Positions 1,875-53,289 of a stretch of 64,000 bases of DNA are shown here, piece after piece. Source of the stretch: Sphingobium sp. CR2-8 (GTDB lineage: Bacteria > Pseudomonadota > Alphaproteobacteria > Sphingomonadales > Sphingomonadaceae). A model generated the notes under the pieces. That model had not been told where the DNA came from and made no database searches. It worked only from the letters and a program-made list of their open reading frames with translations. A program made the position numbers and the translations under genes. Each line of letters opens with the position of its first letter. The first letter of the stretch is position 1. The DNA lies in NCBI RefSeq assembly GCF_035818615.1, contig NZ_JAYKZY010000001.1:846501-910500 (forward strand). Reading direction: 5' to 3'.

Positions 1875-1889
1875 GTTCACTGCGCGAAC
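1875..1889. promoter_or_regulatory. GTTC-N7-GAAC box, FMO promoter
   Basis: GTTCACTGCGCGAAC. On the minus strand TTGCGA (1852-1857) follows after 17 nt, and TACGCC lies 17 nt further on, a plausible -35/-10 pair for the FMO starting at 1723. A second TTGCGA lies 15 nt away on the plus side. The placement resembles an activator site around -60. Confidence 0.55.
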
Positions 1890-1997
1890 ATTGCCGGTCA
1901 GTTATTGCGACTCGCGGCAAACACTGCCAACTCTTGGTGACGTTGCACTTGCCAGGCACAGCGTTGATCGAACGGATTGCGGAAACCAGCTACGGTA

Positions 1998-2012
1998 GTT
2001 CGCCCGGAGAAC
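1998..2012. promoter_or_regulatory. GTTC-N7-GAAC box, SDR promoter
   Basis: GTTCGCCCGGAGAAC, 129 bases before the SDR start. TTGCCC begins exactly 16 nt after the box (2029) and TAAGAG lies 18 nt beyond it. The reverse complement fits the tighter form GTTCTC-N3-GCGAAC shared with the boxes at 11408, 37262, 44700 and 53108. Confidence 0.6.
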
Positions 2013-2141
2013 AGATTAGGGATGCTCGTTGCCCTGTGTATGATGGTGCCTGTAAGAGTTGGGGCACATACCAGCGGGATCGCGCTCATTAGCCTGGGAC
2101 GATGCATCGCACGAGCTGCGGCACATGAGGGAGAAAATTGC

Positions 2142-2903
2142 ATGGACGATATTACCTACCCCAGCCTTCGCGGCAAGGTCGGTTGGGTTTCGGGCGGCTC
2201 GAGCGGCATCGGGCGCGCGATCGCCCTGTCGCTTGCTGCCAGCGGTGTGAAAGTGCTGATTGCCGATGTCGATGAGGACGCAGCGGCTCAGACCATCGCC
2301 TACATAAAAAGTTACGACGGCGAGGCCGCGTTTTGCCGGGTCGATGTATTGGACGACCTGTCTGTGAGGTCGAGCCTAGGTGCTGCCGTCGATCAATTTG
2401 GCAGGCTCGACGTCGTCGTGAACTCTGCCGGCAGGACCTCCACGGACGAGTATGACGATTTCGAACGTAACGTCGATATGTTCCTGCTCGGCACTTGGCG
2501 CGTGATGCGCGCCGCGATGCCCCTATTGCAAAAATCCGGCGGCGGATCGTTGATCAACATCGCGTCCATCGCTGGGGTCACCGGATCCATCGGGCCGGCT
2601 GGCTATGGCCCCGCCAAGCACGGAGTCGTCGGCGCGACGAAGGACGCTGCGCTCAAACATGCGAAAGATGGGATTCGTGTTAACGTGGTATGTCCTGGGT
2701 ACATCGAAACGCCCATGACCGCGAAATTCGCGCCGACGCCGGCCGAGAGCGACGCGCTTATCAATGGCACGTTGCGCGTTCCCATGGGTCGTTGGGGCCG
2801 TCCGGAAGAAATCGCCGCGGTCGTCTCTTTTCTTGCGTCCGAACAGGCTTCCTTTATTACAGGGCAGGCTATCGTTGTGGATGGAGGGCTTACCGCACGC
2901 TGA
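2142..2903 (+). CDS. Short-chain dehydrogenase/reductase (SDR)
   Basis: 253 aa classical SDR, an NAD(P)-dependent alcohol/ketone oxidoreductase. It shows the cofactor motif GGSSGIGRA near residue 15, NSAG in place of NNAG, a serine before the active-site YGPAK (Y-x3-K), and the PG turn after it. The C-terminus ends with [12 protein letters not shown], typical of the family. The start at 2142 is chosen because GAGGGAG stands just upstream; a longer frame from 1977 has no such site and adds no family homology. It is transcribed away from the FMO, from a region with a GTTC-N7-GAAC box. The substrate cannot be told from sequence. Confidence 0.88.
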
Positions 2904-2961
2904 TGTCGGCGAAAGGTTGCTAATTTCATTTCTGCGTTTGATTCATCGAAGATGTTGCCAG

Positions 2962-3768
2962 CTACGATGCATTCTTTCTCTCCGCGAAGTCTTGAAGTGA
3001 CTGTTCAATCTTCGAAACGCACTCCTGCAGCTTGGGCAGGTAGCGCTGCGCCGCCTGCTCCGTAGTCATCACACTGCGGAAGAAGATGATGTTGACAGCA
3101 CCAGCGACACGGCCGTGAGACGCCATTACGGGGAGTGCGATAGCGCTGATCTTGCTTTCCGTCTGCCCCGCCGAGCTTGCATAGCCGCGCGTGCGTACCG
3201 CTTCACTCAGACGCCGCACAGTTTCGCGATCTCGGACGTCGTCAGCCGCCGGTCCGCCCAGCGCTTCAATGATTGCGAGGGAAGCTTCGAGTTCCTCTTG
3301 GGTCATAGCGGCCAGGATTGCGAGTCCTAGTGCCGAGCGGGTCAAATGACGCTCTTTACCGACCATTGCCCGGTGGATCGACATTGGGCTGATCTTGTGG
3401 GTCGAGATGCGGATCAGGACCTTACCGCTGTCAAAGCTGGCGAAATCGCATGGCCACAGGACGTCCTTGCTCAAGTCGAAAAGTGGCGGCCAGGCGAACT
3501 GCGTGACGACGTCGTCGTCCTTCAGAGCATCTGCGAGATACGCAAACTTTGGCGTCAGCCCGATTGCCCCATCATCATCGCGGCGCGAGACATAGCCGAG
3601 CTGATTCAGCGTCTTTACCAGCCGATACGCCGAAGAGCGTTCGATGCCAGCCCTTTCGCTTAGTTCGCCCATCTTAACCGGACCGAGCTCGCTGAGCACC
3701 TCTATGATCTGCAGGCCTCGTACAAGCGATCGGACATCCTTGTAGGGGCTTCGCTCCAATTCACTCAT
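2962..3768 (-). CDS. IclR-family transcriptional regulator (mhp cluster, distal to mhpB)
   Basis: 268 aa. The N-terminal winged helix-turn-helix (residues about 12-75, with SERAGIERSSAYRLVKTLNQ) is followed by the IclR effector domain with the family run TRGYASSAGQTE and, near the end, ALPVMASHGRVAGAVNII. I chose the ATG at 3768 because AAAGGATCC precedes it; the frame extends 34 codons further upstream without family similarity. It is divergent from mhpB with 134 bases between, the classical position for the regulator of a meta-cleavage operon (MhpR in E. coli is also IclR family). The GTTC-N7-GAAC box at 3781 sits immediately upstream of its own ribosome binding site, suggesting that the same protein could control itself and mhpBCAD. 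Confidence 0.88.
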   Translation of the reverse strand: MSELERSPYKDVRSLVRGLQIIEVLSELGPVKMGELSERAGIERSSAYRLVKTLNQLGYVSRRDDDGAIGLTPKFAYLADALKDDDVVTQFAWPPLFDLSKDVLWPCDFASFDSGKVLIRISTHKISPMSIHRAMVGKERHLTRSALGLAILAAMTQEELEASLAIIEALGGPAADDVRDRETVRRLSEAVRTRGYASSAGQTESKISAIALPVMASHGRVAGAVNIIFFRSVMTTEQAAQRYLPKLQECVSKIEQSLQDFAERKNAS

Positions 3769-3780
3769 TGGGGATCCTTT

Positions 3781-3795
3781 GTTCACTTGGGGAAC
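3781..3795. promoter_or_regulatory. GTTC-N7-GAAC box in the IclR/mhpB divergent promoter
   Basis: GTTCACTTGGGGAAC. TTGCAA starts 16 nt after it (3812) in the mhpB direction; a good -10 is not evident, as expected for an activator-dependent promoter. It differs at only two positions from the box at 18641 (GTTCATTTGGTGAAC). Confidence 0.6.
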
Positions 3796-3902
3796 AGTTC
3801 TGGAAATGATGTTGCAAGGCGTCAAGCGTTTATCGATGGTTTCCTCCAACAACCCGCACGGATCAGGCACAAGGTGCGGCGGAAAAGCTAAAGGACAACT
3901 GC

Positions 3903-4847
3903 ATGATCGTCGGCGCCATGTGCCTTTCGCACAGTCCGTTGAAAGACCAAAATCGACCGGATTCCGCAGTCGAGGCCGAATTCGATGCTGCGGTATCGAA
4001 AGCGGCGCAACTGGTCGCCGAGCAGCGGCCCGACATTACCGTGATATTTCACCCCGATCACATCAACGGCTTTTTCTACGGTCTTCTCCCGTCTTTCTGC
4101 ATTGCGACGGAGGCTACGTCGATCGGAGACTACGGCACTGCTGCAGGCAAACTGAATGTGCCCGAAGCGCGAGCTGCCGATCTCGCGCGCTCGACGCTTG
4201 ATTCCGGCGTTGATGCCGCGATCTCCTACAACATGCAGGTGGACCACGGCGCCATGCAGCCCATCGAGTGGCTGTCGGCCCAATATCCGCTGTCCCGCGT
4301 CATACCAATCTTTGTCAACTGCGCCGCACCGCCCCTGCCAACGTTCGACCGTGCGCGGGCTCTGGGGAGGGCGGTGGGCACTTGGGCGCGCGCCGCACCA
4401 GAGCGTGTGCTGATCGTGGGCTCGGGCGGACTATCGCACGACCCGCCGATGGCCGATCTCGCAACGGCGCCCCCTGAGATGCGTCACCGTCTTATATCGG
4501 GGGCGCCGCTCGATCATGCTGCGCGATTTGCGCGTCAAAGCCGTGCCCGCAATGAGGGCAATAGCATGGCCGCGGGAGTATCGACGCTGTTACCCGCTAG
4601 CCCCGAGTGGGACAGAATGCTGCTCGACGCGTTCGCGTCGGGCGACCTATCCGTGCTCGACAAATGGTCCGATATCGCGATCAGCCAGACCGGTGGGCGC
4701 GGTGGACATGAGACGCGCACTTGGGTCGCCGCCCTGTCTGCGCTGGGCAACAGCTATTCCACGACCGAACTATATTATGCGGCGATTGACGAATGGATCA
4801 CCGGAATGGGCATTCTCTGGGGTACTCCGACCCAAACGCCTGCGTAA
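3903..4847 (+). CDS. mhpB: 3-carboxyethylcatechol 2,3-dioxygenase-type extradiol dioxygenase (MhpB family)
   Basis: 314 aa, the same length as E. coli MhpB, and recognisable along its whole length (CLSHSPL, FHPDHINGFFY, SYNMQVDHG, GSGGLSHDPP, ETRTWVAAL). It is a class III (LigB-type) Fe(II) extradiol enzyme that opens 2,3-dihydroxyphenylpropionate-like catechols at the meta position in the cytoplasm. The two histidines shown to be essential in the E. coli enzyme, H115 and H179, fall at exactly residues 115 and 179 here. AAAGGA precedes the ATG. It is first in the mhpB-C-A-D run, 34 bases before mhpC. The true side chain of the substrate may differ from propionate. Confidence 0.93.
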   Translation: MIVGAMCLSHSPLKDQNRPDSAVEAEFDAAVSKAAQLVAEQRPDITVIFHPDHINGFFYGLLPSFCIATEATSIGDYGTAAGKLNVPEARAADLARSTLDSGVDAAISYNMQVDHGAMQPIEWLSAQYPLSRVIPIFVNCAAPPLPTFDRARALGRAVGTWARAAPERVLIVGSGGLSHDPPMADLATAPPEMRHRLISGAPLDHAARFARQSRARNEGNSMAAGVSTLLPASPEWDRMLLDAFASGDLSVLDKWSDIAISQTGGRGGHETRTWVAALSALGNSYSTTELYYAAIDEWITGMGILWGTPTQTPA

Positions 4848-4881
4848 ACCACGCCCACTGACATTATTTTGAAAGAGGCAT

Positions 4882-5748: not shown

Positions 5749-5882
5749 GGGGTTGGCCAGCCGCCATCATTTTCATCGCGCAACGTCGGCCGGGTCACAA
5801 GCCATGCAGTCGTCAACCCGTGCCTGCTTCGGATCAGCTCCAGGTTGATAATTACTTCGATGTAAAGCCTTAGGAAATAAAG

Positions 5883-7529
5883 ATGATATCACGAGCTCAC
5901 GAGGCAGCAAGAGACGTCGATGTCGCGATCGTCGGCGCTGGACCAGTTGGTCTCACGATCGCGAACTATCTCGGGAGCATGGGGGTCGAGACCTTGATCC
6001 TTGAACAGCGCGAAAAGTTGATCGACTATCCGCGCGGCGTGGGAATGGACGACGAATGCCTGCGCAGCTTCCAGTCGATCGGACTGGGTGACGCGGTCGC
6101 AGCGCACACGACGCCGGGCCAGAAAATGCGGTTCGTCACTGCGACTGGCAAGACGTTCGCGCTGATCGATCCGAAAACCCGAGAATTCGGCTGGCCGCGG
6201 CGAAGCTCATTTATTCAACCGATGACTGACGAGATTCTCTACAGCGGCTTGGATCGTTTCGATAGCGTAAACGTCGTCTTCAATTCTGAGGTCGACACAT
6301 TCGTTCAGGATGCGAAACAGGTCGTACTTTCAGTCAAGACCGATGGACGCGAGCATTCGGTCAGGGCGAAGTGGCTTATCGGATGCGACGGTGGCCGCAG
6401 CATTGTCCGCAAGCAACTCGATATACCGTTCGACGGCATTACGGATGCCACGCGATGGGTCGTTATCGACATTCTGGACGATCCCGTCGGCCTTCCGGAT
6501 TCCTACCTGCACTGTGTACCTTCGCGACCGTTCGTTTCCATCGCATTGCCTCATGGTATGCGGCGGCTGGAGTTCATGGTCTTGAGCGACGAGACGGAGG
6601 AAGAATTGTGCTCGCCAGCAGGCGTGGAGCAGTTGCTGGCACGCGCGTTGCCGTACCCCAAGAAGGCGAACGTGCTGCGCAGCCGCGTCTACACGCACAA
6701 TGCCCGCCTGGCACTGAAGTTCAGGCAGGACCGCGTTTTTATCGCTGGTGACGCCGCGCACCTGATGCCGGTATGGCAAGGTCAGGGCTATAATAGCGGC
6801 ATACGCGATGCGACGAACCTAGGGTGGAAGTTGGGAATGGTGGTGCGCGGCGACGCGTCACCGGATATATTGGACAGCTACGAAGCGGAACGGCGTGGAC
6901 ATGCCAAGGCGATGATCGACCTGTCGGTCACTGCCGGTCGCGTCTTCGCGCCCACGAACAAGGCGGTCGCCTGGTTACGCGACCGGATTGCCATGTCTTT
7001 GAACGCGATCCCACCGATCAAGCGGTATTTCGTGCAAATGCGCTTCAAACCAATGCCCCGGTTCACCCGCGGCGTCGTCCTGACTAGCACCAGCGGCCAG
7101 CCGGACCGCAAGGCCACAGGACGCCTGTTCCCCCAGCCCTACGTTGTCACAAGGGATGGCCAGAAGCGTCGGCTTGATGACGTGATAGGTCTACGCTTTG
7201 CCGTGCTTTCGTGGGGTAGCGATCCGCAAGTGCATATGTCGGAAGAGGTTCGTCAGTTCTGGCGAGACCTGGGCGCTGAAATGATTGCGATCGTCCCGCC
7301 CACGCAGGTCACGAATTTTCGCGGCACCGTGCTGAAAGGAACCCAACTTATCGGCGATGTGGATGAAACTCTGCACGAGTGGTTCGCAGCGCAGGATATG
7401 GATGGGTCGATCGTCATCATGCGCCCTGATCGCTTCGTGGCCGGCATCGTCTCGCCGCAAGAACTTGATGCGGCCACTCATCAGCTCCGCACGATCATCA
7501 AAGGGCAATCGGTGGCGCAGCCGGTCTAG
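5883..7529 (+). CDS. mhpA: Flavin-dependent 3-(3-hydroxyphenyl)propionate hydroxylase-type monooxygenase (MhpA family)
   Basis: 548 aa, close to the 554 aa of E. coli MhpA. Group A flavoprotein hydroxylase: FAD-binding VAIVGAGPVGL at the N-terminus, the second motif CDGGRS in the middle, and FIAGDAAHLMPVWQGQG, where the GD motif binds the ribityl chain. The C-terminal thioredoxin-like tail typical of the family follows (about residues 400-548). It converts a monohydroxylated phenylpropanoid-like phenol to the catechol that MhpB cleaves, using NAD(P)H and O2. TAGGAAATAAAG precedes the ATG. Gene order B-C-A-D differs from the E. coli order A-B-C-D. Confidence 0.91.
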   Translation: MISRAHEAARDVDVAIVGAGPVGLTIANYLGSMGVETLILEQREKLIDYPRGVGMDDECLRSFQSIGLGDAVAAHTTPGQKMRFVTATGKTFALIDPKTREFGWPRRSSFIQPMTDEILYSGLDRFDSVNVVFNSEVDTFVQDAKQVVLSVKTDGREHSVRAKWLIGCDGGRSIVRKQLDIPFDGITDATRWVVIDILDDPVGLPDSYLHCVPSRPFVSIALPHGMRRLEFMVLSDETEEELCSPAGVEQLLARALPYPKKANVLRSRVYTHNARLALKFRQDRVFIAGDAAHLMPVWQGQGYNSGIRDATNLGWKLGMVVRGDASPDILDSYEAERRGHAKAMIDLSVTAGRVFAPTNKAVAWLRDRIAMSLNAIPPIKRYFVQMRFKPMPRFTRGVVLTSTSGQPDRKATGRLFPQPYVVTRDGQKRRLDDVIGLRFAVLSWGSDPQVHMSEEVRQFWRDLGAEMIAIVPPTQVTNFRGTVLKGTQLIGDVDETLHEWFAAQDMDGSIVIMRPDRFVAGIVSPQELDAATHQLRTIIKGQSVAQPV

Positions 7530-7599
7530 CGGCAGCAAGCCTTCTGGCTTTTACGCGCTTCAGCATCGCTTGGCCCCCGATCAAATTCAGGAAGATGCA

Positions 7600-8385
7600 A
7601 TGAGTAACGACGTTCTAGTAGATCGATATGCGGAAGAGCTTTTCCGTGCGCTGCGCGAGTTCCGCGCGATCAAACCACTCCATGAGCAAGCCGAACTGAC
7701 GATCGACGATGCCTATCGCATTTCTCTTGGAATTCTCGCCAGGCGTGAGGCCGGGGGAGAGCGTGTCGTGGGAAAGAAGATCGGCGTCACCTCAAAGGCG
7801 GTGCAAGACATGCTGGGCGTGGACCGGCCGGATTTCGGCTTCCTGACCGACACGATGCGCGTCGATTGCGGTGCAACGGTCACGATCGCCGGCCATCTCG
7901 TCGCACCGCGCGCAGAGGCCGAGATCGCGTTTATCCTGAAGGATGATCTGACGGGTCCGGGAGTGACAGACCAAGATGTTTTGGCGGCAACGGAAGCCGT
8001 GTGTGCGTGTTTCGAGATCGTGGACAGCCGGATCGAGAACTGGAACATCCGGATCGTCGATACGATCGCGGACAATGCATCCTGCGGGATTTTTGTTCTT
8101 GGTAACAAGCGGGTTGATCCCCGCAATCTGAATCTGCCTGCTCTCAAGTGCGAGGTCTACAAGAACGGGGAATTGATATCGGAAGGCTATGGCTCGGCGG
8201 TGCAGGGGTCACCGCTAACCGCCGTTGCTTGGCTGGCGAATACGCTCGGCGCCTACGGCGTCGCCCTGAAAGCCGGAGACGTGATCTTGTCGGGATCGCT
8301 CGTCCCGCTCGCTCCGGCGGTGGCCGGTGACACGTTCATGACCAGGATCGAAGGTCTTGGCTCCGCAGAGATTCAGTTCGCGTGA
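7600..8385 (+). CDS. mhpD: 2-hydroxypenta-2,4-dienoate hydratase (MhpD family)
   Basis: 261 aa. It belongs to the fumarylacetoacetase-like hydratase family: KIGVTSKAVQDMLGV, the acidic metal site around PRAEAEIAFIL, and the end GDVILSGSL. It hydrates 2-hydroxypentadienoate to 4-hydroxy-2-oxovalerate. The ATG at 7600 is preceded by TTCAGGAAGATGCA; a frame reaching back to 7357 overlaps mhpA and is not used. It is the last plus-strand gene of the block, and a strong hairpin follows within 5 bases of its stop codon. Confidence 0.92.
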   Translation: MSNDVLVDRYAEELFRALREFRAIKPLHEQAELTIDDAYRISLGILARREAGGERVVGKKIGVTSKAVQDMLGVDRPDFGFLTDTMRVDCGATVTIAGHLVAPRAEAEIAFILKDDLTGPGVTDQDVLAATEAVCACFEIVDSRIENWNIRIVDTIADNASCGIFVLGNKRVDPRNLNLPALKCEVYKNGELISEGYGSAVQGSPLTAVAWLANTLGAYGVALKAGDVILSGSLVPLAPAVAGDTFMTRIEGLGSAEIQFA

Positions 8386-9469: not shown

Positions 9470-10410
9470 GCGAGCACCTCCTTTCCTGCAATAATGCGTT
9501 GTGCCAGCAGTTCGCCGGTCGCTTTGGCTGCTGCGGTCATGATGTCGAGATTGCCCGAGTAGCTCGGGAGGTAATCCCCTGCCCCTTCGACTTCGAGTAG
9601 GATCATGGTCTTTATTCCGGTGAACTCGCCTCGACCGGGAATCTTTAGCTTATTATTGTCGCCAAAGCGTTCGAACTGCACTTCCTGCTTCAATCGATAA
9701 CCGGGCACGTAGGCCTGCACCTTCTTGATCATCGCTTCAATCGAGGCGCGAATTACATCTTCGTCGGCACCTTCGGACAGAGTGAAGACCGTATCGCGCA
9801 TGATCATCGGTGGTTCGGCGGGATTAAGAATGATGATCGCCTTGCCCTGCGCCGCGCCGCCGACTTTTTCGATCGCTCCTGCGGTCGTTCGGGTGAATTC
9901 GTCGATGTTGGCGCGAGTGCCGGGGCCAGCGGAGCGCGACGACACAGACGCCACGATCTCCGCATAATGGACGGTCGCGACCTGGCTCACCGCCGCGACC
10001 ATCGGGATTGTCGCCTGACCGCCGCACGTCACCATGTTGACATTGCCCGCGTCCAGATTGGCTTCGCCGTTCACAGTCGGGATCGTATAGGGACCTATGG
10101 CTGCGGGGGTCAGGTCGACCACCTGGATGCCATCGGCGCGCAACACCCTATCATGTTCCTTGTGCGCATAGGCACTGGTGGCATCGAAGGCGATCCTAAT
10201 TTCGGGATAGCAGGGAAGCGCCCTCAGCCCTTCTATTCCCTCATGTGTAGTGGCGATACCATGTGAACGCGCCATGGCGAGACCTTCGGACTTGGCGTCA
10301 ATACCGACCACCGCCGCCAACTCCATGTTCTTTGGGTATTTGATCATCTTCATCATCAGATCGGTGCCAATGTTGCCCGATCCGATGATGACTGCTTTCA
10401 CCCTCGACAT
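9466..10410 (-). CDS. mhpF: Acetaldehyde dehydrogenase, acylating (MhpF family)
   Basis: 314 aa. NAD-binding [14 protein letters not shown] at the N-terminus; the catalytic cysteine is Cys129 in [12 protein letters not shown]. It oxidises acetaldehyde with CoA and NAD+ to acetyl-CoA. The ATG at 10410 has a textbook AGGAGGAG upstream, so the 26 extra codons of the open frame are left out. It is first in the minus-strand mhpF-mhpE pair and diverges from the IclR gene at 10564. The intergenic 153 bases hold no GTTC-N7-GAAC box, so this half of the pathway may be controlled differently from mhpBCAD. Confidence 0.93.
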
Positions 10411-10563
10411 CTGCATCTCCTCCTGTGTCGTGTAGATCAGCCGCTGTCTCTGGGCGGCCTGCTCGCGCGAGCATCGAAGGTTGCGCAATGAAGATCAACT
10501 TGGATACTTTAAACAACTTCCGTACAGTGGCAATTTGATGCCTAAACGCCATGAAGGGTCTCC

Positions 10564-11355
10564 ATGCCGAATCCGCAACTGACCGAAAAGACTCTCGACA
10601 TCCTCCAAGCCGTCGGCGCGTTGGGATGCCCGTCGCTACCCGAAATCCAGTCATGGTGCGGGCTGCCGATGACGACGTCCCACAGGATCGTGCAAACGCT
10701 CGTGGAGCGGGGATTCATCATGCGAACGGTCAAAGGGCGCTACCGGTTGGGGAATGCGGTTCTTGCGCTTTCTCAAGGCATTTCCCACCACGGCCTGCTC
10801 TCGGCGGCAGCGCGCCAGCCCGTCAAGGAGCTGTCCCGCAAGGTGCGCAACCATGTTCATGTTGGAGCACTGAACGACGACATGGTCATCTATCTGGTCA
10901 AGCAGACCTACGGTAAAAAGCGTCTGCATTCTGCTGAAGGGGCGGAACTGGAAGCCTATTGTTCGGCACTGGGGAAAGTGCTGCTCGCCGCATTGCCGAT
11001 GGATGCGCTCGACACCTACCTCGCGGGCAGCGCATTCGTGGCATTGACCACCAACACGATCATCAACGCCGATCAGCTAAGAGCCGAGATTCAGGACACG
11101 CGCATGCGCGGCTGGGCTTCCGATCGAGAAGAGTTTGCAATCGGGCTAAATTGCATTGCCGTTCCCGTTAGGGATCATAACGGCGAGGTGGTAGCCGCGC
11201 TCTCGATAAGCGTCCTCTCTTTGCGCGGCGTTGCTTCGGATCTGAGCGTGTTCCTGTCGTCGCTTTTCGATACGGCAAGCGAAATTTCGCGCGCAGCGTT
11301 TCCGGCGTCGCTTCGCGATATTCGGCCAGCAGCTCGCGTTTCTTCAGTTGCGTGA
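10564..11355 (+). CDS. IclR-family transcriptional regulator (divergent from mhpFE)
   Basis: 263 aa. HTH at about residues 5-70 (LPEIQSWCGLPMTTSHRIVQ) and IclR effector domain with AYCSALGKVLLAALP and RGWASDREEFAIGLNCIA, the family's ligand-pocket signature. AAGGG stands just before the ATG. It points away from mhpF, the usual layout for a local regulator, and is followed by the cyclase operon in the same direction. Only about a quarter of residues appear shared with the other IclR (2962-3768) by eye, so this is not a recent duplicate. Confidence 0.87.
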   Translation: MPNPQLTEKTLDILQAVGALGCPSLPEIQSWCGLPMTTSHRIVQTLVERGFIMRTVKGRYRLGNAVLALSQGISHHGLLSAAARQPVKELSRKVRNHVHVGALNDDMVIYLVKQTYGKKRLHSAEGAELEAYCSALGKVLLAALPMDALDTYLAGSAFVALTTNTIINADQLRAEIQDTRMRGWASDREEFAIGLNCIAVPVRDHNGEVVAALSISVLSLRGVASDLSVFLSSLFDTASEISRAAFPASLRDIRPAARVSSVA

Positions 11356-11407: not shown

Positions 11408-11422
11408 GTTCGCGCTGAGAAC
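11408..11422. promoter_or_regulatory. GTTC-N7-GAAC box, cyclase operon promoter
   Basis: GTTCGCGCTGAGAAC, 93 bases before the ATG at 11516. TTGTTG starts 16 nt after the box (11439), and TATCGC follows after a 17-nt spacer (11462), giving one of the best -35/-10 pairs of the set. Confidence 0.62.
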
Positions 11423-11515
11423 AATTCTCCCTTTCCCGTTGTTGATGTAGCGCTCCCGGCTTATCGCAAAGCGCCGCTGCCCTCGGGTGGAGACATAAAG
11501 AAAAAGGTTGAAAAC

Positions 11516-12490
11516 ATGTGCGACAATCACGGCCATGGCGCGCCGCAGGGCGTCAGTCAGCTTCTCTCCGGCGCGCCTACCAATTGGGGACGCTGGGGCG
11601 CGGACGACGAAGTCGGCTCACTGAACTTTCTGACCAACCAAGAGGTTCTTCGCGGCGTCAGCGCCGTGCGCCAGGGCAAGGTATTCACCTGTGGCGAGGT
11701 CATCGGCCATCCGGACGGTGATCCTCTTTGGCCGGGGCGGGCACCGGCCAAGCACGAGACCGTGATCGACAAGGCAAGCTACGACCGCGGCGACATGGCC
11801 ACACTACCCGGCGGCGCCGAATTTACGGACGACCGCATCGAGATGTTCCTGCAGGGATCGACCCAGTTCGATGCGCTTGGCCATGTCTGGTACGATGACA
11901 AGATGTGGAACGGCTATCCGTCCAGCGCGTCGAATGGCGGTCTCAAGAAAGCCTCGATCCTGCCGATCGCGCAGCGCGGTGTTGTCGGGCGTGGCATCCT
12001 TCTCGATATGGCGGCGTATAAGGGGAAGGATTTTCTCGACAAGGGCGACCTGCTTCATCTCGATGATCTAGTCGGATGTGCCGAACGGCAAGGCGTCACA
12101 ATCGAAAAGCACGATATCCTTTGCCTCCGGCTCGGCTTTCTCCAGCTTCTGCGCGTCCAAGGGCCAGAGACATTCTACAAAGACTTTTTGGAGCCGGGAC
12201 TGACCTACTCGCCGGAACTTGTGGACTGGTTCCATAAGATGGAGATTCCATGCCTATCGACCGACACCATCTCAAACGAAACCGAGATCGATCCAGCGAT
12301 CGGCGTTCAAATACCGCTTCACTGCGCGTTGATGCGCAACCTGGGGATCACGTTCAACGAGGTCTGTAACTTCGAGGAGCTTAACAAGGACTGTCACGCC
12401 GACGGGCAGTGGACTTTCCTCTACACCGCCGCCCCGCTGAAGGTCACAGAGGCCACGGGCGCACCCGTCAATGTTCTGGCGATCAAGTAG
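11516..12490 (+). CDS. Cyclase-family metal-dependent hydrolase (PF04199, kynurenine-formamidase/isatin-hydrolase fold)
   Basis: 324 aa. The GSTQFDALGHVWY stretch near residue 118 is this family's version of the H-G-T-H-x-D metal motif, and GRGILLDMAAYKG and LSTDTIS match conserved family blocks. Known members hydrolyse amides or cyclic amides and, in some catabolic clusters, cyclic 1,3-diketone-like rings; which applies here is not clear. The first His of the usual motif is replaced (QGSTQ), which is worth noting. The ATG at 11516 is chosen from family length; the frame upstream to 11348 overlaps the IclR gene. It heads a plus-strand run of six genes up to 17605. Confidence 0.78.
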   Translation: MCDNHGHGAPQGVSQLLSGAPTNWGRWGADDEVGSLNFLTNQEVLRGVSAVRQGKVFTCGEVIGHPDGDPLWPGRAPAKHETVIDKASYDRGDMATLPGGAEFTDDRIEMFLQGSTQFDALGHVWYDDKMWNGYPSSASNGGLKKASILPIAQRGVVGRGILLDMAAYKGKDFLDKGDLLHLDDLVGCAERQGVTIEKHDILCLRLGFLQLLRVQGPETFYKDFLEPGLTYSPELVDWFHKMEIPCLSTDTISNETEIDPAIGVQIPLHCALMRNLGITFNEVCNFEELNKDCHADGQWTFLYTAAPLKVTEATGAPVNVLAIK

Positions 12491-12550
12491 AGCATATGCC
12501 GACGTGTGCCAGAAAACAGTGGATCGACATGACTTTGAACGGGAGAAGAT

Positions 12551-14278
12551 ATGTCGATTGAGTCCTATGATCTGGTTGTCGCCGGGTCGGGCGCTGCGGG
12601 CCTATCAGCGGCGATCATCGCTCATTCCAAAGGTTTGCGTGTCGCTATCGTTGAAAAGACGGAGTGGGTCGGCGGCACGACGTCCTATTCCGGCGGCGTG
12701 GCATGGGTTCCAAACAGCCGTCAGAATATCGAAAAAGGGGCTGACGACAGCGTCGATCGGGCCGAGCTCTACCTCGATAACACCGTAACCACCCAGCACG
12801 AACGCATCGCTCGCCGGGAATATCTGGAGCGTAGCCCCGAAGCGTTCGCATATCTGGAAAGCGTGACGCGGCCGTTGTTCTTCGTCAGGCCAAGCAACTC
12901 TCCAGACTATTTTCCTGACACCGAAGGCGCCTCGCAGCAGGGACGGGCAATGACCCCTTACAGTGTTGACGGGAGGACGCTGGGCGACCATTTTCTCGAC
13001 ATCCGTCCACCCCTGCCCGAACTTTGCCTGTTCGGGCGACAGATGCTTGAGCTCATGGACGTCTATCACCTGCTCAACGCCCGTCGCTCTTTCAAATCGG
13101 CGGTGCACACCTCCGTCCTCCTGATGCGCGACCTTCGGGATCGGCTGTTCTACCGCCGCTATGGGCGGGGAACACGCCTGACAGGTGGCAACGCGCTGGT
13201 GGCGAACCTTTATAAATCAGTACTTGATCGCAATATCCCGGTATTTCGCAATACGCCGATCGTCGATCTTGTGAGGAACGATCGAGGCGTCAATGGCGTC
13301 GTCGTCAGGCGGGATGGCACGATGCAAACGCTGATGGCGGAGCGCGGAGTGATCCTTGCCACCGGCGGGTTTCCCTGGGGAAAGCAGCTGCGCGAGGATT
13401 TCATGGACGAGGTGCCGGCAGGCGTGTCCGCCACGAGTCCTGACAGCACCGGTGACGGCATTGCGATCGCCATGACGAACGGCGCCAAATTCGACCGTGA
13501 CAACGTCGAAGGGGCGTTCTGGACGCCCGTGTCCATCGGCAAGCGCAAAGACGGTTCGGCCGCCCATTTTCCGCACCTGATGGCCGATCGTGCGAAGCCT
13601 GGCCTGATTGCCGTCAACAAGTTCGGTCAGCGTTTTTACAACGAAGCCGAAAATTACCATGACTTTGTCCGGGCGATGCTCGGCCGTTTCCGGAATGAGG
13701 ATCAGCAGCCCGTCCATCTAATCTGCGACGATGCGTTCGTGCGTAAATATGCCTTCGGCGCGGTTCCCCCGCTCGCCGCCGATCGCGGCCGCGCCGTAAA
13801 ATCGGGTTATCTCATTCGAGCCGACAGCATTGACGAACTGGCTACGAAGATCGGCGTAGAAAGCCAAGTATTGCAGGAGACGCTGCACCGCTTCAACTCT
13901 GATGCCCAGCGAGGCGTCGACAAGGATTTCCACAAGGGGGAAAGCCAGTACAACCGCTATCTCGGCGATCCAACCCATACACCCAATCCTTGTCTCGGCC
14001 CGATCGAGAAGCGTCCTTATTATGCGATCCGTGTCTATGCCGGGGATATCGGGACAGCGAGTGGCCTTGCGGCGGACCTCCATTCACGGGTTCTCGATAA
14101 CGAGGGAAACCCCATCGACGGCCTCTATGCGTGCGGGAACGACCGTAATTCCATCATGGCCGGATTCTATCCTAGCGGCGGGATCACGATCGGCCCCGCG
14201 CTGACCTTTGCGTATCTTGCAGTCATGCATGCTGCGGGGGTCGGCGACGCGCCGTCATCGCATCGCGAGACGCGCTAG
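12551..14278 (+). CDS. FAD-dependent 3-oxosteroid-1-dehydrogenase-like flavoprotein
   Basis: 575 aa. N-terminal FAD site LVVAGSGAAGLSAAI followed by EKTEWVGGTTSYSGG, and a C-terminal half with GLYACGNDRNSIMAGFYPSG and TIGPALTFAYLA. In ketosteroid delta1-dehydrogenases a tyrosine and a glycine four residues later near the C-terminus form the active site (Y487/G491 in the Rhodococcus enzyme); Y540 and G544 here have the same spacing and surroundings. The family removes hydrogens next to a ring ketone. A non-steroid alicyclic ketone is equally possible. GGGAGAAGAT precedes the ATG. A neighbouring phenol hydroxylase and ring-cleavage set (mhp) would suit an aromatising step. Confidence 0.82.
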   Translation: MSIESYDLVVAGSGAAGLSAAIIAHSKGLRVAIVEKTEWVGGTTSYSGGVAWVPNSRQNIEKGADDSVDRAELYLDNTVTTQHERIARREYLERSPEAFAYLESVTRPLFFVRPSNSPDYFPDTEGASQQGRAMTPYSVDGRTLGDHFLDIRPPLPELCLFGRQMLELMDVYHLLNARRSFKSAVHTSVLLMRDLRDRLFYRRYGRGTRLTGGNALVANLYKSVLDRNIPVFRNTPIVDLVRNDRGVNGVVVRRDGTMQTLMAERGVILATGGFPWGKQLREDFMDEVPAGVSATSPDSTGDGIAIAMTNGAKFDRDNVEGAFWTPVSIGKRKDGSAAHFPHLMADRAKPGLIAVNKFGQRFYNEAENYHDFVRAMLGRFRNEDQQPVHLICDDAFVRKYAFGAVPPLAADRGRAVKSGYLIRADSIDELATKIGVESQVLQETLHRFNSDAQRGVDKDFHKGESQYNRYLGDPTHTPNPCLGPIEKRPYYAIRVYAGDIGTASGLAADLHSRVLDNEGNPIDGLYACGNDRNSIMAGFYPSGGITIGPALTFAYLAVMHAAGVGDAPSSHRETR

Positions 14279-33260: not shown

Positions 33261-33319
33261 ACACACACTCCATAAAGTCTCGTTCAATCTCATCAATTAG
33301 AGGCCGCAAAGCGCAAACA

Positions 33320-36838: not shown

Positions 36839-37417
36839 GAGCCTTCTCTCCATCAATTTTATGTTTTGAGAAAGTGTGCCACCGGCCTCTTGTAAATGCA
36901 ACTCGACAAGATGTCGCGGGCGACCGGCGCGCTGCCGCGCAAAACGGCCCGGAAAGCGGCAGAACATACCAAGACATGGCTTGGGTTATGGAGTTCGTTA
37001 GCAGCGGGGTTGGGCACCAAGATTTATCTAATGATCGGATTGATGAGCTAATGTCCGAAACTCCTAGAACTAAAGGGCACTCCTCCGCCTGTCATTGCGC
37101 TTCGTTCGCGATCGCCGGCCTGCTGGCTTGCGTCTATCACTTCTTTCACTCCGTGCCGCAGTTATACGGACAACACGCAACGCGCGACCTATGGGCAAAA
37201 ACGGTCGAGTTTGCGTGGCAGCGAAGCGCCCGGGTGCCAAAGCACCGCATTAATTGCAACCGTTCTCTCTGCGAACATTCTGGTCATACGCGTTGCAAAA
37301 TGATCGGATGCTTTGGATTGTGACCGCTGCCGCCGTCATCGATCGAGGACGTTGGCCAATAACGACGCCGGGCTGCGGAGGCTTGTTTCAGAGCAAAGCA
37401 ATGGGAGGGACCATTCG
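36839..37417. other. Divergent promoter region (AraC / TonB receptor)
   Basis: 579 bases. A plus-strand frame of about 150 codons (36874-37323) has no ribosome binding site or motif and is judged chance. The box at 37262 and TTGCAA at 37293 are the only signals recognised. Confidence 0.6.
37262..37276. promoter_or_regulatory. GTTC-N7-GAAC box upstream of TonB receptor
   Basis: GTTCTCTCTGCGAAC, 141 bases before the ATG at 37418. TTGCAA starts 16 nt after it (37293). The -10 is poor (GATTGT at 17 nt). The sequence continues ...GAACATT like the box at 1875. Confidence 0.6.
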
Positions 37418-42269: not shown

Positions 42270-44519
42270 CTAGAATTTGAAGTCGATGGCACCACCGAAG
42301 GTAATTGGTGCTGCAGGTGTATAGATGTAACCGGCCGGTGTCGTATTGGTGCTGATCCGGTCGACATATTTCTTGTCGAGGAGATTACGTCCCCAGACAC
42401 GGAGCGCCAGATTATCGTTGAGCGAAATCTTCACCTGCCCGTTCAACAAGTCGAATGGTTTCTGACGGAGAAAGTTGTCCGGCTCCGAATAGAACCCACT
42501 ATTATGCTGGTAATCGGTGCTAATCAGCACAGTGCCGATGCCTGTCCGGAATTCATAGTCCGCACCTAATGAGCCAGTGAATTTCGAAACATAGGGCGTC
42601 TGGTTGCCATTCGCCACGACAGCCGACGCTGTCGCGCCGAATGGAGCGTTCGGATTTGGAATCCCGCTCGGTGCACAACCAACGCAAACACCGTTGATAA
42701 TCTGACCGAAGTCCTTGTACTTCGAGTCGAGGTACGCCGCCGATGCTCGCAAGGTCAGGCCCGACATCACGCGTACCTGAACATCGCCCTCCAGACCATC
42801 GACCGTCGACTTGCCGGCATTCGACAAAATAAGCGTCGGTGCTCGCGTGATTGTGACCTGCGGATCTTTGACGTTGTAATGAAAAGCCGCCAGGCTAAAG
42901 CGAACATGTCGGTCAAATAGCTCGCCTTTCAGACCGACCTCATAGGCATCCACCTGTTCCGGCTTCGCCGGTGTGCTGTTGTAGGTCAGCAAGGCGAATA
43001 CGGCCGACTTGAAACCACGATTGAATGAGACATAGCCCAGCACATCGTCCGTGAATTGATAGTCGGCCGCCGCGCGGAACGTCAGCTTTTCAGTTTTGAA
43101 TTTCCCCGGCTCCCTCAGGGGACCGAATACTGTCCCATCAGGGCGGAATAGTCCTCCATTCGCATCGATCCGGTCAATCGTGTACCGCAGACCGCCGGTC
43201 ACTTTCAGTCTGGGCAGAATTTCATAGGTGGCCTGGCCGTATGCCGCGTAGGATTTAGCGTGCTGTCTACCGAGCGAAATGAAGCCTGTCGTCCCGCCCA
43301 GCGATGCAATCGTACCCGCCGGACTAAAGAAGCGAGTCCGACTGTCGTAGGCGCTGACAGTGTTATAATAGAAAAGTCCGCCTACCCACTGGACAGGGCT
43401 TCCGCTCAACGAGGACGCCTGCAGTTCCTGCGTAAACTGACGAACGTGACCCGAAGGCGTGGCAAGGCCGTCCGCACGATCGGTGTAATCGCTGTCAGCC
43501 AGCATCTGTGCATTGGTGTCCATATATGCCGTGATGCTCTTGAGCGCGGCAAACGAAATCTCTTGCTCTGCGGTCAGAGATACACCCCACGTCGTGGCTT
43601 TCTGATAGGACTCGGAGATGGCGTCGTTCGCCTGATCGTAGAAGCCTATGATCGGCAGCGGCTGAGAATTTGGCTGCGAGGAATAGCCGCTACGGGTTCC
43701 CGGGAAAGCATTCCCAGCAAGGTTGTTTTTCGAGTATGTATAGAATCCGCCTAGAGCGACCGACGTCAGATCGGACGGGGTGACAAGAATCTTCGAACGG
43801 ACCGAGAAATTATCCTGGTAGTTTGTCCGGTTGCCAGTCGGCACAAATTTGCCGTACCCTTCGCCCTGACGACGCCCCGACAGCGAGATATCCGCGGCGA
43901 CAGTCTCGGACAAACCGGTAGTAGCATAGGCATTGGCTTCGAACGTATCGTAATTGCCATAGCCGATACTCCCTTTCATCGAAGCAACATGGGATGGATC
44001 CAGCGTGACGAGTTGAATGACGCCGCCGGACGAGTTGCGCCCAAAGAGCGTACCTTGGGGCCCTTTAAGAACTTCGATGCGGCTCAGGTTGTTCAAAGAG
44101 AACACGCCGCTCGGCAGGCGGGAATAATAGATGCCGTCAACGTAGACGCCGACACTCGCCTCGTTACCAAGGGCGGTGCCGGGATTACCGATCCCGCGCA
44201 GGAATGGCAGGGTGACCCCGTTGTTCGAACTGAGGTTTAGGCCAGGGATAACCGTCTTGACCTGTTCGAGATTGTCGAGCCCACGATTGGCAAGAGCAGC
44301 GCCGCCGATCGCAGTCACTGCGATCGGGATTTTCTGAATATTTTCTTCCCGTCGCTGCGCGGTAACGACGATGTCCTCGAGCTGGCTGTCGTTCGCGACA
44401 GATGCCGTCGATGGCAATGGCGGCTGTACCACGTCTTGAGCAGACGCGGGCGCCGCAAGCGCGATGGCCAACGAAACGAGCGAGCCTTCAAGGCAACGCG
44501 ATTTTTTTAGCTTAATCAT
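42270..44519 (-). CDS. TonB-dependent outer-membrane receptor
   Basis: 749 aa. Signal peptide to about residue 28 (APASAQ), plug with LEDIVVTAQRREENIQKIP, VGVYVDGIYYSRLPSGVF and RIEVLKGPQGTLFGRNSSGG, barrel end FGGAIDFKF. Start at 44519 with GGGAGGAACAA; the frame back to 44570 is ignored. Upstream, 180 bases away, lies the box at 44700. Transcribed toward the SnoaL, ferredoxin, DUF1330 and SDR genes, which may form its downstream operon (gap of 73 bases to the SnoaL start). Confidence 0.93.
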   Translation of the reverse strand: MIKLKKSRCLEGSLVSLAIALAAPASAQDVVQPPLPSTASVANDSQLEDIVVTAQRREENIQKIPIAVTAIGGAALANRGLDNLEQVKTVIPGLNLSSNNGVTLPFLRGIGNPGTALGNEASVGVYVDGIYYSRLPSGVFSLNNLSRIEVLKGPQGTLFGRNSSGGVIQLVTLDPSHVASMKGSIGYGNYDTFEANAYATTGLSETVAADISLSGRRQGEGYGKFVPTGNRTNYQDNFSVRSKILVTPSDLTSVALGGFYTYSKNNLAGNAFPGTRSGYSSQPNSQPLPIIGFYDQANDAISESYQKATTWGVSLTAEQEISFAALKSITAYMDTNAQMLADSDYTDRADGLATPSGHVRQFTQELQASSLSGSPVQWVGGLFYYNTVSAYDSRTRFFSPAGTIASLGGTTGFISLGRQHAKSYAAYGQATYEILPRLKVTGGLRYTIDRIDANGGLFRPDGTVFGPLREPGKFKTEKLTFRAAADYQFTDDVLGYVSFNRGFKSAVFALLTYNSTPAKPEQVDAYEVGLKGELFDRHVRFSLAAFHYNVKDPQVTITRAPTLILSNAGKSTVDGLEGDVQVRVMSGLTLRASAAYLDSKYKDFGQIINGVCVGCAPSGIPNPNAPFGATASAVVANGNQTPYVSKFTGSLGADYEFRTGIGTVLISTDYQHNSGFYSEPDNFLRQKPFDLLNGQVKISLNDNLALRVWGRNLLDKKYVDRISTNTTPAGYIYTPAAPITFGGAIDFKF

Positions 44520-44699: not shown

Positions 44700-44714
44700 G
44701 TTCTCAATGCGAAC
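44700..44714. promoter_or_regulatory. GTTC-N7-GAAC box upstream of TonB receptor
   Basis: GTTCTCAATGCGAAC. Toward the receptor (minus strand), TTGCGA (44678-44683) starts 16 nt after the box and TACTCC follows a 17-nt spacer. Almost the same sequence as the boxes at 53108 and, reversed, 11408. Confidence 0.62.
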
Positions 44715-50214: not shown

Positions 50215-50233
50215 TTCACGTCTCTTTCAAATT

Positions 50234-51493
50234 TCAAGCCGCCAGCGAGCGCTTCTGGGTAAAGCGTACGGGCAGCTTCGTAAGTGAGCTGGTGTTGTCG
50301 GATTCCAGCCAAGAAATTCCACCCGCCAGTTCCAGGTCGGGCATGTGCTGGACGACCGCCGACAGCATGAGCTGCATTTCCATGCGAGTGAGATGACGAC
50401 CAAGACAATTATGGGTTCCGATGCTGAAGCCCAGATGGGGGTTGGGAGAACGCGTGATGTCCAGCTTGTTCGGGTTCTCGAAAATGGTTTCGTCGCGATT
50501 AGCCGAAGCCAGCCACGGCACCACCCAATCGCCCTTGCGGATGAGCTTGCCGTGCAACTCATAGTCTCGGGTGGCGACCCTGAACTTATGCTTCGATGGG
50601 CTTACCCAGCGCACGACTTCTTCCGCCGCTTGCGGGGCAAGCGACGGATCCGAGCGCAGCCGGGCGGCTTGCTCAGGATTTTGGATGAGCCCAAGAAAGC
50701 CTACGGACAAAGCACCGCGCGTGGTTTCTAAACCGGCCACGACCAGAGAAAAACACCACCAGCCGACGTCGCGTTCGCTCATGCGTTCGCCATTGGCCAA
50801 CACCATATTGCTGACTAGGCTGGTAAAATCGTCAGCGGGCTTGGCGCGCCGCTGCATGGCGAGATCGAACATATAGTCGAACAGCGCCTTGACCATCGTG
50901 TGCTGGGTTTTCACCCTGTCTCCGTCGATCTGATTCTCCGGATCCTGCGCACCCATGAAGGCGGTGCAGTAATACCGTACCTTGTCCCAGTCTTCGCGTG
51001 GGACACCCATCATCTCACACACGACTAGGGCTGGCAGCGGGCCAGCAATGTCATCGACCAAGTCGCACTCCCCCCTCGGCAATACCTCCGAGAGGAGCTG
51101 GTCGACAATGCTCTGCACCGCAGTGCGCAGGCGGGCGATGGCCGGTACCGAGAAATGCTTGTTGAAGGGTTGCCGCAGAAGCAGGTGGCGCGGCGGATCG
51201 AGGAAGGTCGCAATGCCATCGAAACCCAACACCTCGCGTTGCTCCGGCGTCGGCTCTTCCGCCGTCAGCGGCATGATACCGCCATATTCGGAACTGAAGG
51301 CGTGGGGGTCTTCGAGTACCGTTACGCAATCGGCGTAGCGGGTGATCGACCAGAAGGGCTTAACCCCGTTGCAGCCGTTCGTCCAGTGAACCGGGTCCTC
51401 GGCGCGCAGGCGGCGGAAGTCTTCGTAGAACTTGCCCGTCGTGAAATATGAAGAGGTTGTCAGGTTATCGTCCAGCTCTCGCCACTGCGTCAT
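50234..51493 (-). CDS. Cytochrome P450
   Basis: 419 aa. I-helix VVAGLETTRGA, ExxR in EEVVRWVSP, heme thiolate Cys363 in FSIGTHNCLG. The heme loop is of normal length, in contrast to its paralogue at 45748. GAGGGAGA precedes the ATG at 51493; the frame upstream to 51574 is ignored. Followed by its ferredoxin gene. A good sigma70-like promoter lies at 51546-51574, and the AraC regulator of family B is 566 bases upstream on the same strand. Confidence 0.93.
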   Translation of the reverse strand: MTQWRELDDNLTTSSYFTTGKFYEDFRRLRAEDPVHWTNGCNGVKPFWSITRYADCVTVLEDPHAFSSEYGGIMPLTAEEPTPEQREVLGFDGIATFLDPPRHLLLRQPFNKHFSVPAIARLRTAVQSIVDQLLSEVLPRGECDLVDDIAGPLPALVVCEMMGVPREDWDKVRYYCTAFMGAQDPENQIDGDRVKTQHTMVKALFDYMFDLAMQRRAKPADDFTSLVSNMVLANGERMSERDVGWWCFSLVVAGLETTRGALSVGFLGLIQNPEQAARLRSDPSLAPQAAEEVVRWVSPSKHKFRVATRDYELHGKLIRKGDWVVPWLASANRDETIFENPNKLDITRSPNPHLGFSIGTHNCLGRHLTRMEMQLMLSAVVQHMPDLELAGGISWLESDNTSSLTKLPVRFTQKRSLAA

Positions 51494-51545
51494 CGCGCAC
51501 TCTCCCTCTTGATGGGTCTCGGGGGTCACCCCAGCTACGCTGAGA

Positions 51546-51574
51546 ATAATGCCAAATACGCCTATTAGTGTCAA
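51546..51574 (-). promoter_or_regulatory. Sigma70-like promoter of the P450-ferredoxin unit
   Basis: Minus strand: TTGACA (51569-51574), a 17-nt spacer, CATTAT (51546-51551), 53 bases before the P450 start. The best consensus promoter seen in the window; it carries no GTTC-N7-GAAC box. Confidence 0.6.
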
Positions 51575-51578
51575 GTTG

Positions 51579-52058
51579 TCACAATATGTCTAATTTCTGG
51601 ATTATACGTCTTGAAAGACGTCCATTTGACGCCCGATTGAGCCATCGATCCAGGATCAGGCATGAAGGCGGTGGATCAGAAAAACCTTCTGTCTTGTGAT
51701 ACTTCCCTGCCGCGACCATAGCTTGTACTCGTAGCGCTGCTTGTGACCGGAGATAGCAGCGTCGAGCGCAATCACGCCGGCGAGGCCCTTCGCATGAAAA
51801 ATCGCCGGTGAAGGTACCGCTTCGCAGGCATGTCGGCGGTCGTCTGTTCTCCGCCACGATCGGCGAGACCATGTCACCGCCACCAATATGGAGGGGCATC
51901 ATCTCGAACAGCGCCATGAATTTCTTCATCGCCCGTGTCCTATCGACTGGTTGGCAGCGCATTGGCGCGTCGTGCAATCACCGTGCCTCGCCCGCATGAT
52001 CGAAGTGCCATCACGCCTCCGCCGGTCTCGAAACGAGCGCTGCCTCTCGTACAGCCCG
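51579..52058. other. Intergenic region with a possible gene relic
   Basis: About 480 bases between AraC and P450. Minus-strand pieces in different frames look protein-like: KKFMALFEMMPLHIGGGDMV, then AISGHKQRYEYKLWSRQG. The pattern faintly recalls a CMD-family protein (a helix followed by Y-E-x-x-x-H-like) but the match is too weak to assign. Confidence 0.25.
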
Positions 52059-52910
52059 TCACTGTCGCGTGCGAAAACGGAAGCCGCTGGGAGTCTCACC
52101 TTGAAGCTTGCGAAATGCGGAGGAGAAGGTGCTAGATACGGCGAAGCCCAGCCGGAAGCTGATTTCCTTTAGGGGAAGATCGGTCTCCGATAACAGCGCC
52201 TTGGCTTTGGTGAGCCGAACACTTTCGACATAATCGTGGATGGTGTGACCGGTCGAATTCTTGAAAGCTCTACGCAGGTGAGCGGGGCTAACATTGCAAG
52301 TCGCGGCGATCTCGTCGATCGTCGGACAACGCTGAATAGTCGCTTCGATGAATTCCACCACACGGTTAAGGTGCGACGGCTGCAGCTTGCCATCGCGGGT
52401 GCGTGCTCGCAGTTGCTCCCCCGGCTGGCCGAAATGGCGTGAGATCTCGACCGCCACTGCTGAAGCAAGCGATTCGATCAGCAAAGTGCTTGCTAGCCCA
52501 GGCGCCGCCACCTCGTTGCCCATCCATTGAATAGCTTGGTCGATACGACTGTTCCGGACGTCGCAGCAGCGTGTGAGGTCGCCCTTATCCCACTCACCAG
52601 GTATGTTCGCCATGGCGGAAAACCAGTCGCGGTCGAAGCGGCATGTAACCGTCTGAACATACTCGTCGTTCGCCGCTGCGCTCGTGCTGAAGGGCACATG
52701 TGCGGGAAAGAACATAAGTTGGCCGAAAGGCCGTTCCGAATTGTCCACCAAAGCAGACACGCCGAGCTGCGTTGGGTTGCTTCGGCGGCGTAGTAGATGA
52801 TGCGGCTCGACCTCGACGATCTCCGCGCCCCGATGCCAACGATAATCGACGATTTGGACGCAAACGCCGGGAAGATCGATCCGGGAATTGATTTTGTCTT
52901 GCAACGACAT
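52059..52910 (-). CDS. AraC-family regulator (family B paralogue)
   Basis: 283 aa. Opening VCVQIVDYRWHRGAEI, strand QLMFFPAHVPF, linker, then HTH segments TIDEIAATCNVSPAHLRRAF and PLKEISFRLGFAVSSTFSSA, ending KLQGETPSGFRFR. Collinear with the regulator at 22852. GGGAGGG precedes the ATG. Positioned upstream of the P450-ferredoxin pair on the same strand and 1 kb from a TonB receptor, both candidate targets. Box at 53108 with TTGTCA/TACCTA lies 197 bases upstream of its start. Confidence 0.87.
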   Translation of the reverse strand: MSLQDKINSRIDLPGVCVQIVDYRWHRGAEIVEVEPHHLLRRRSNPTQLGVSALVDNSERPFGQLMFFPAHVPFSTSAAANDEYVQTVTCRFDRDWFSAMANIPGEWDKGDLTRCCDVRNSRIDQAIQWMGNEVAAPGLASTLLIESLASAVAVEISRHFGQPGEQLRARTRDGKLQPSHLNRVVEFIEATIQRCPTIDEIAATCNVSPAHLRRAFKNSTGHTIHDYVESVRLTKAKALLSETDLPLKEISFRLGFAVSSTFSSAFRKLQGETPSGFRFRTRQ

Positions 52911-53289
52911 ATCCCTCCCTCCGCCCGGCCCAAATACCGGGGACTGTCTTATCGACAGCCCTTGGCATTGATACGCGAAAGGGACGTCTGCTGCGCCCTA
53001 CCCGCCCTAGAGTGATACACAGCATTAGATCTGCGGCGTCATGTATACCACACTATGCCTTTAGGTAATCAGGCGTTCCCTTCGTGACAATCTCGCTTCC
53101 ACAAACTGTTCTCAGAGCGAACATATGCCATACATTCATCAATGCTCGTTCAGCGCTCTCCCAGACCCTATGTAAAGATGCCGTGAAGCAGCTCGCTGAA
53201 TTGTTCATTTAGCGGTAAATATTCGATCTTTCACACGTCGAAGCTTCATATGGGCTCCCGATCCCGGCAGACGGCGGTTCCCCCACGAT
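52911..53289. other. Upstream region of the AraC gene
   Basis: About 380 bases, no gene. Contains the box at 53108 and its downstream -35/-10 candidates; the rest is unassigned. Confidence 0.5.
53108..53122. promoter_or_regulatory. GTTC-N7-GAAC box upstream of AraC gene
   Basis: GTTCTCAGAGCGAAC. On the minus strand TTGTCA (53085-53090) starts 17 nt after it and TACCTA (53062-53067) follows a 17-nt spacer, a good promoter for the AraC gene at 52910. It continues ...GAACAT as do the boxes at 1875, 37262 and 44700. Confidence 0.62.

Follow-up and report, generated by a model that had tools for sequence, protein, structure and literature searches.

Analysis of a 64,000-nucleotide stretch of the Sphingobium sp. 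CR2-8 genome (hereafter the window; G000:C1:846501-910500, within a 918,701-base contig of a 4.51-Mb genome in three contigs) revealed a repeated promoter unit whose 15-bp box, GTTC-N7-GAAC, is very probably the operator of a single MhpR-like IclR-family regulator encoded at 2962-3768(-), here termed IclR1. The unit consists of the box, 16 bp (17 in two cases), TTGC or TTGT, a further ~17 bp and a TATC-like -10 element, and it points toward its target gene. An earlier note on this DNA had proposed that such boxes place uptake and degradation under one protein, with an IclR-family regulator as the best guess. A single regulon joining uptake (two TonB receptors) with degradation (the mhpB and cyclase/KstD units, an SDR and an FMO-type flavoprotein) is supported here, as is the regulator family, which is narrowed to IclR1 rather than to a second, PcaR/PcaU-like family member, IclR2, at 10564-11355(+). 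The fixed spacing between the box and TTGC/TTGT had been overlooked, together with an imperfect site at 27150(-) and its alcohol dehydrogenase (ADH) target.

Both strands of the window and of the whole genome were scanned for GTTC-N7-GAAC, with 100 dinucleotide shuffles as background. The window contains ten perfect sites, whereas the shuffles averaged 1.17 and never exceeded 4 (0/100 reached ten), which bears out the earlier statement that the boxes are far more frequent than chance. All eight coordinates given at that time are exact, and six boxes match GTTCNCNNNGCGAAC when either strand is counted, but two further sites, at 51377 and 53887, had been missed. Genome-wide, 10 of 42 sites fall within the window. 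Chance could well account for three of the ten perfect palindromes, but an accidental origin of the repeats as a whole is contradicted by the shuffles, the clustering in the genome, the spacing and the conservation, and is exceedingly improbable.

Seven boxes carry TTG on the strand that reads into the gene (1875, 1998, 3781, 11408, 37262, 44700 and 53108), at N16 in five of them and at N17 in 1875(-) and 53108(-). Window genes were named through family scans, and the FMO-type flavoprotein through solved structures; distances below run from box start to start codon. The box at 3781-3795(+), with TTGCAA at 3812-3817, lies 122 bp before the mhpB-like extradiol dioxygenase gene (3903-4847, +), which opens the ring-cleavage run; an open reading frame (ORF) at 7357-8385 is provisionally labelled mhpD. 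The box at 1998-2012(+), with TTGCCC at 2029-2034, precedes an SDR family dehydrogenase gene (2142-2903, +) by 144 bp, and that at 11408-11422(+), with TTGTTG at 11439-11444, precedes the genes for a cyclase (PF04199) and a KstD-like dehydrogenase (11513-14278, +) by 105 bp. Two TonB-dependent receptor genes are preceded by units: TonB1 (37421-39658, +) by the box at 37262-37276(+) with TTGCAA at 37293-37298 (~159 bp), and TonB2 (42270-44519, -) by the box at 44700-44714(-) with TTGCGA at 44683-44678 (~195 bp). The N17 boxes at 1875-1889(-), with TTGCGA at 1857-1852, and 53108-53122(-), with TTGTCA at 53090-53085, face the gene for the 592-residue FMO-type flavoprotein (1-1723, -, running past the left window edge; 166 bp) and an AraC-type regulator gene (52059-52910, -; 212 bp), respectively.

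The spacing between box and TTG is far from random. In the genome, the strict promoter pattern GTTCNCNNNGNGAACN{14,17}TTG gave nine matches, whereas its reversed control gave none; eight of these represent the seven boxes (1875 matching on both strands), and the ninth, C1:801855, lies inside a CofC-like ORF. A genome scan, suggested in the earlier note as a check that might refute the regulon, did not do so: the mismatch-free N16 unit occurred only once outside the island, inside a CofC-like ORF (C1:801854-801888). With up to two mismatches allowed, the genome yielded 51 matches versus 37 in the control. Ten cluster stretches were pooled (own, G047, G048, G089, G090, G104, G168, G281 and two from Stappia; 436,951 bases, 51 boxes, 102 orientations), and TTG was found at offset 16 in 39 of the 102 orientations (37 boxes) and at offset 17 in 7, compared with a mean of 1.6 at other offsets.

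Alignment of 41 oriented sites (38 N16 and three realigned N17), selected on TTG and the GTTC/GAAC arms, showed conservation at additional positions: A directly after GAAC in 35 sites, C (29) or T (11) after TTG, A at position 56 in 32, and, counting 23 bp from where TTG starts, TA in 21. The TTG, the C/T that follows it and the downstream TA fit a -35 element (TTGC/TTGT) separated by 17 bp from a TATC-like -10 element, and we infer that the box centre would lie near -59 from the start of transcription. An A-T step at positions 25-26 from the box start was also observed, in 31 and 30 of the 41 sites. By eye, no GTTC repeat was seen beyond the box, as occurs in the three-box sites of PcaU/PobR/HmgR; instead, A25-T26 and G31-TTGC are conserved, the latter being read as the putative -35.

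A leave-own-out profile, trained on 31 sites with none from the own genome or G168 (reporting level 12), scored the units at 3781, 37262, 44700, 11408 and 1998 between 29.9 and 35.2, compared with a peak of 13.0 in its reversed control. The profile also scored 24.1, versus 13.0 for the control, at the imperfect box GTTCGTCTTGAGAAA (27150-27164, -), one of three one-mismatch matches lying outside the perfect-box positions. This box is followed by N16 and TTGCGC at 27133-27128, and its proposed target is a zinc-type ADH gene (26007-27026, -) starting 138 bp from the box start. The earlier view that the boxes always occupy promoter regions holds for seven of the eight but fails for 18641-18655 (no strand), a palindrome between AraC1 and CapA: TTG occurs there only at N17 in both directions and no profile score reaches 12, so that, among the targets listed previously, the FMO, SDR, mhpB, cyclase/KstD, TonB receptor and AraC genes are retained while CapA is removed. 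Two other palindromes were rejected as regulatory sites and are probably due to chance, namely 51377-51391 (no strand), within the coding sequence of a P450 gene (50234-51574, -), and 53887-53901 (no strand), at the 3' end of a TonB gene (53895-56450, -) just past its stop codon; both score below 12. The CapA-family protein itself (PF09587; 18920-20266) weakly matches the lasso-peptide epimerase MslH, and no relative of it was found in the other clusters compared.

The assignment of the boxes to IclR1 is founded on protein similarity and on gene order. IclR1 matches NCBIfam IclR-family models over nearly its full length, and IclR structures are among its PDB matches. Its scores against the MhpR models PRK09834.1-3 are 168, 142 and 138 bits, below the respective cut-offs of 269, 251 and 299, whereas the PcaR/PcaU/PobR model TIGR02431 (cut-off 284.75) gives only 102 bits; IclR1 is thus MhpR-like, yet outside the MhpR equivalog proper. 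It shares 36% identity (147 bits) with E. coli MhpR and 24% with IclR2. The gene is present in 5 of 94 genus genomes and, counting the own genome, in 4 of the 397 family genomes sampled. Nine named loci were found, in Rhizorhapis suberifaciens, Sphingobium sp. Sx8-8, Sphingomonas formosensis, Sphingobium sp. AP50, a lichen Sphingomonadaceae metagenome-assembled genome (MAG), Sphingobium subterraneum, a lichen MAG labelled Rhodospirillales (L080), Stappia indica and Stappia taiwanensis; six of them coincide with G168, G047, G104, G089, G281 and G090, giving 11 distinct loci at 57-97% identity to the window protein. In 10 of the 11 (eight sphingomonads and two Stappia), the stretch separating IclR1 from mhpB carries a box-N16-TTG unit, as at 3781, and this linkage is one of the reasons why the boxes are taken, with considerable confidence, to be IclR1 operators.

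Units are also retained at other genes of the cluster, and conservation of the boxes, put forward earlier as a check, extends to ten other genomes or contigs. Perfect-box units precede SDR1 in seven genomes, the FMO gene in seven and the cyclase gene in four (own included), and an imperfect one precedes SDR1 in G090. Units stand before TonB genes in the own genome, G047, G048 and G104, and before AraC genes in the own genome, G089 and G104. In Stappia indica, the second of the units stands before a DctP/DctM TRAP transporter. As the opening bases of the longest DctP frame are shared with this unit, translation probably starts further inside the frame; this placement suggests that the transporter may import the same substrate. 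Stappia units before DctP genes were noted at L081:6720-7910(-) and L082:15572, with a family scan for L081 (S. indica) only. Among the 94 genus genomes, ten matched the strict pattern when a trailing A was required: G000 (8 matches), G048 (6), G089 (5) and G047 (3), all IclR1 carriers and the only genomes with multiple matches, and G002, G003, G007, G022, G059 and G074 with one each. Matches clustered at IclR1 were found in carriers only. The site shared by G003 and G074 was set aside as chance, the G003 copy lying among conjugation genes within a HEPN-domain ORF.

In R. suberifaciens (G168), a TonB2-type unit (L064:8330-8922) is followed only by a 95-residue mhpA match on the opposite strand; across the compared stretches, this cluster gave no match to TonB2, mhpE, mhpF or the cyclase, and it looks shortened or rearranged. 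In S. formosensis (G104; L068:8517-10171), the IclR2 and mhpF matches are each split in two, through decay or sequencing error.

The same comparisons bear on whether IclR2 binds the boxes, with IclR1 using another site. In favour of IclR2, 53 bp separate its gene from the 11408 box, G047, G048 and G089 have close relatives (49-54%), and PMC8222616 describes a similar site, GTTCGC-N3-GCGAAC, for the related C. glutamicum PcaR. IclR2 scores 135 bits against TIGR02431, below the cut-off of 284.75, and has 28% identity (40 bits) to E. coli MhpR. It matches 24 of the 94 genus genomes at E<=1e-30, but close relatives are confined to the three named. At E<=1e-10, G090 and G281 (88% complete) have no IclR2 match and G168 only a 30% hit elsewhere, yet all three keep units; in G104 the match is split across two frames, and another IclR there is 44% similar. 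The divergent region between IclR2 and mhpF, moreover, lacks GTTC-N7-GAAC in five genomes. Since G090, G168 and G281 retain units without a close IclR2 relative, IclR1 is favoured, and IclR2 is quite unlikely to be the binder. In window 10396-10580 and its equivalents in G047, G048, G089 and G104, an imperfect AACTTCC-N7-GGAAGTT-like palindrome was seen by eye, which a scripted search (6-pair arms, 14-16 bp) did not list; tentatively, it may represent a separate IclR2 operator.

An AraC-type protein of the cluster is a still weaker candidate and very unlikely to bind the boxes. AraC genes (45-62% to AraC2) recur across the clusters, some of them with a unit in front, but no AraC was found in the 20-kb stretch of G281 or in the two Stappia stretches (partial contigs), although these contain units. 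AraC sites are, besides, usually direct repeats.

Several observations weigh against assigning the boxes to IclR1. The clustering of boxes in the 64-kb window corresponds to a binomial P of ~3e-10, a value that overstates significance because orthologous sites are not independent, and the arms and TTG of the 41-site alignment are invariant by selection. Two window units are poorly supported by the profile: 53108(-) is marginal at 13.8, barely above the control peak, and 1875(-) scored 9.9 in one scan and below 12 in the leave-own-out scan, its putative status resting on the N17 register and on orthologous FMO promoters that carry the unit. In L080, a metagenome-assembled contig, IclR1 neither adjoins mhpB nor is flanked by a box, the sole unit preceding an AraC-type gene. 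The IclR1 carrier G090 has no strict-pattern match, its units being visible only under looser rules. The loose unit (box-N16-TTG) occurs 5-9 times per carrier, up to 6 times in non-carriers and up to 7 times in reversed controls; being no commoner in non-carriers than in the control, it proves nothing as a count per genome, whereas clustering and gene context do. Finally, in G007, an IclR protein 32% identical to IclR1 stands beside a perfect unit, so that the box is not exclusive to this regulator. That locus (L060:8392-14259) is a second, distant cluster, with the IclR gene, a perfect unit before a TonB receptor, and then mhpB-like (41%) and mhpC-like (64%) genes. A further comparison speaks for the assignment: among ten class-level IclR1 homologues, the closest (37%) has a perfect unit and the second-closest (35%) a variant palindrome, GTCCACAGCGTGGAC, with N16-TTGC, while the other eight (28-31%) have neither form under the rule used.

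Whether IclR1 would activate or repress is indicated by box position. A site at fixed spacing upstream of a weak -35/-10, not over it, is the usual activator position. The boxes lie upstream of the predicted, weak-looking -35/-10 elements at a fixed distance and the E. coli relative is annotated as an activator, and activation is therefore favoured. Repression by IclR1, throughout or dominating at some promoters, is unlikely, although repression or dual action is common among IclR proteins according to PMC8222616, and 12 bp separate the 3781 box from the IclR1 start codon. Because of this short distance, IclR1 may control its own gene.

Binding, activation, start sites, inducer and relay are what we infer from this arrangement. 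An IclR1 dimer (or tetramer) would bind GTTCNC-N3-GNGAACA, with its centre ~59 bp ahead of where transcription is expected to begin. An inducer, probably a phenolic or catechol-like intermediate, would bind IclR1, which could then help RNA polymerase at weak promoters (TTGC/TTGT, 17 bp, TATC). The predicted output comprises uptake (two TonB receptors), early oxidation (FMO, SDR, ADH and cyclase/KstD) and ring cleavage (mhpB and the following genes), and the AraC-type gene would be switched on too and may relay the signal. The gene content (FMO, P450s, KstD-like dehydrogenase, cyclase and mhp-type ring cleavage) suggests as substrate an alicyclic or terpenoid-like compound that would be aromatised and then cleaved; solved-structure matches of the FMO and one P450 and the literature gave no further hint. 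Elsewhere in the window (30527-33296), a PEP mutase/isocitrate-lyase-like gene adjoins an aconitase-family gene, with relatives in G090, G104 and G281, perhaps representing a methylcitrate-like route for a C3 product.

The closest known counterpart is E. coli MhpR, which activates in response to 3-(3-hydroxyphenyl)propionate and whose operator Torres et al. reportedly placed at -58 in 2003. In the mhpR-mhpA region of E. coli MG1655, GTGCACCTGGTGCAC is followed by 16 bp, ATTGTA and later TATACT. The two systems share divergent regulator and mhp genes and the order of 15-bp inverted repeat, A, 16 bp, ATTG and -10, which is the N17 form found at 1875 and 53108, and the 3781 box has the same placement (box-16/17-TTG) upstream of divergent mhp genes. 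They differ in their arms (GTGC...GCAC in E. coli, GTTC...GAAC here) and in the number of promoters, about eight here including those of TonB receptors, against one in E. coli, the only one examined there. It seems somewhat more probable than not that promoters of the MhpR-like clade follow one rigid layout (15-bp inverted repeat, 16 (17) bp, TTG, ~17 bp, TA), with half-site letters that vary (GTGC in E. coli, GTTC here, GTCC in L084) but a constant spacing, and that new uptake systems, such as sphingomonad TonB receptors and the Stappia TRAP transporter, join the regulon by acquiring the unit. If so, whole MhpR-type regulons could be read from DNA alone, and the fixed register would make regulon members predictable in uncharacterised genomes. 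For the present ~50-kb catabolic island, one candidate regulator can be named from sequence, particular TonB receptors (in Stappia, a TRAP transporter) would be tied to a catabolic pathway, and the promoters could act as reporters for finding the substrate.

A literature search found no published account of this regulon, most subscription journals being outside its coverage, but related sites and regulators have been described. The accessible part of PMC8222616 gives the MhpR site as GGTGCACCTGGTGCACA, and its group-1 subtype GTT-11-AAC (Suvorova and Gelfand 2021) is likewise a 15-bp inverted repeat, GTT..C.....G..AAC. By eye, the 41-site box consensus fits the GKTYCRYW3-4RYGRAMC-like palindrome of that group, although its centre is not W-rich everywhere; unlike here, positions in that part of the account are given from the start codon, and no fixed 16-17 bp to TTG is seen in it. 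PcaR, PcaU and PobR, also IclR-family proteins, have similar GTTC-type sites in the same source, whereas IclR1 fits MhpR-like models better. PheR of Sphingobium sp. SHPJ-2, as described in the accessible part of PMC13273656, resembles the proposed system in being an IclR-family protein that links degradation and TonB genes, but it is a repressor, associated with phenanthrene, whose motif GCAACG lies near the start site (+23 to -21).

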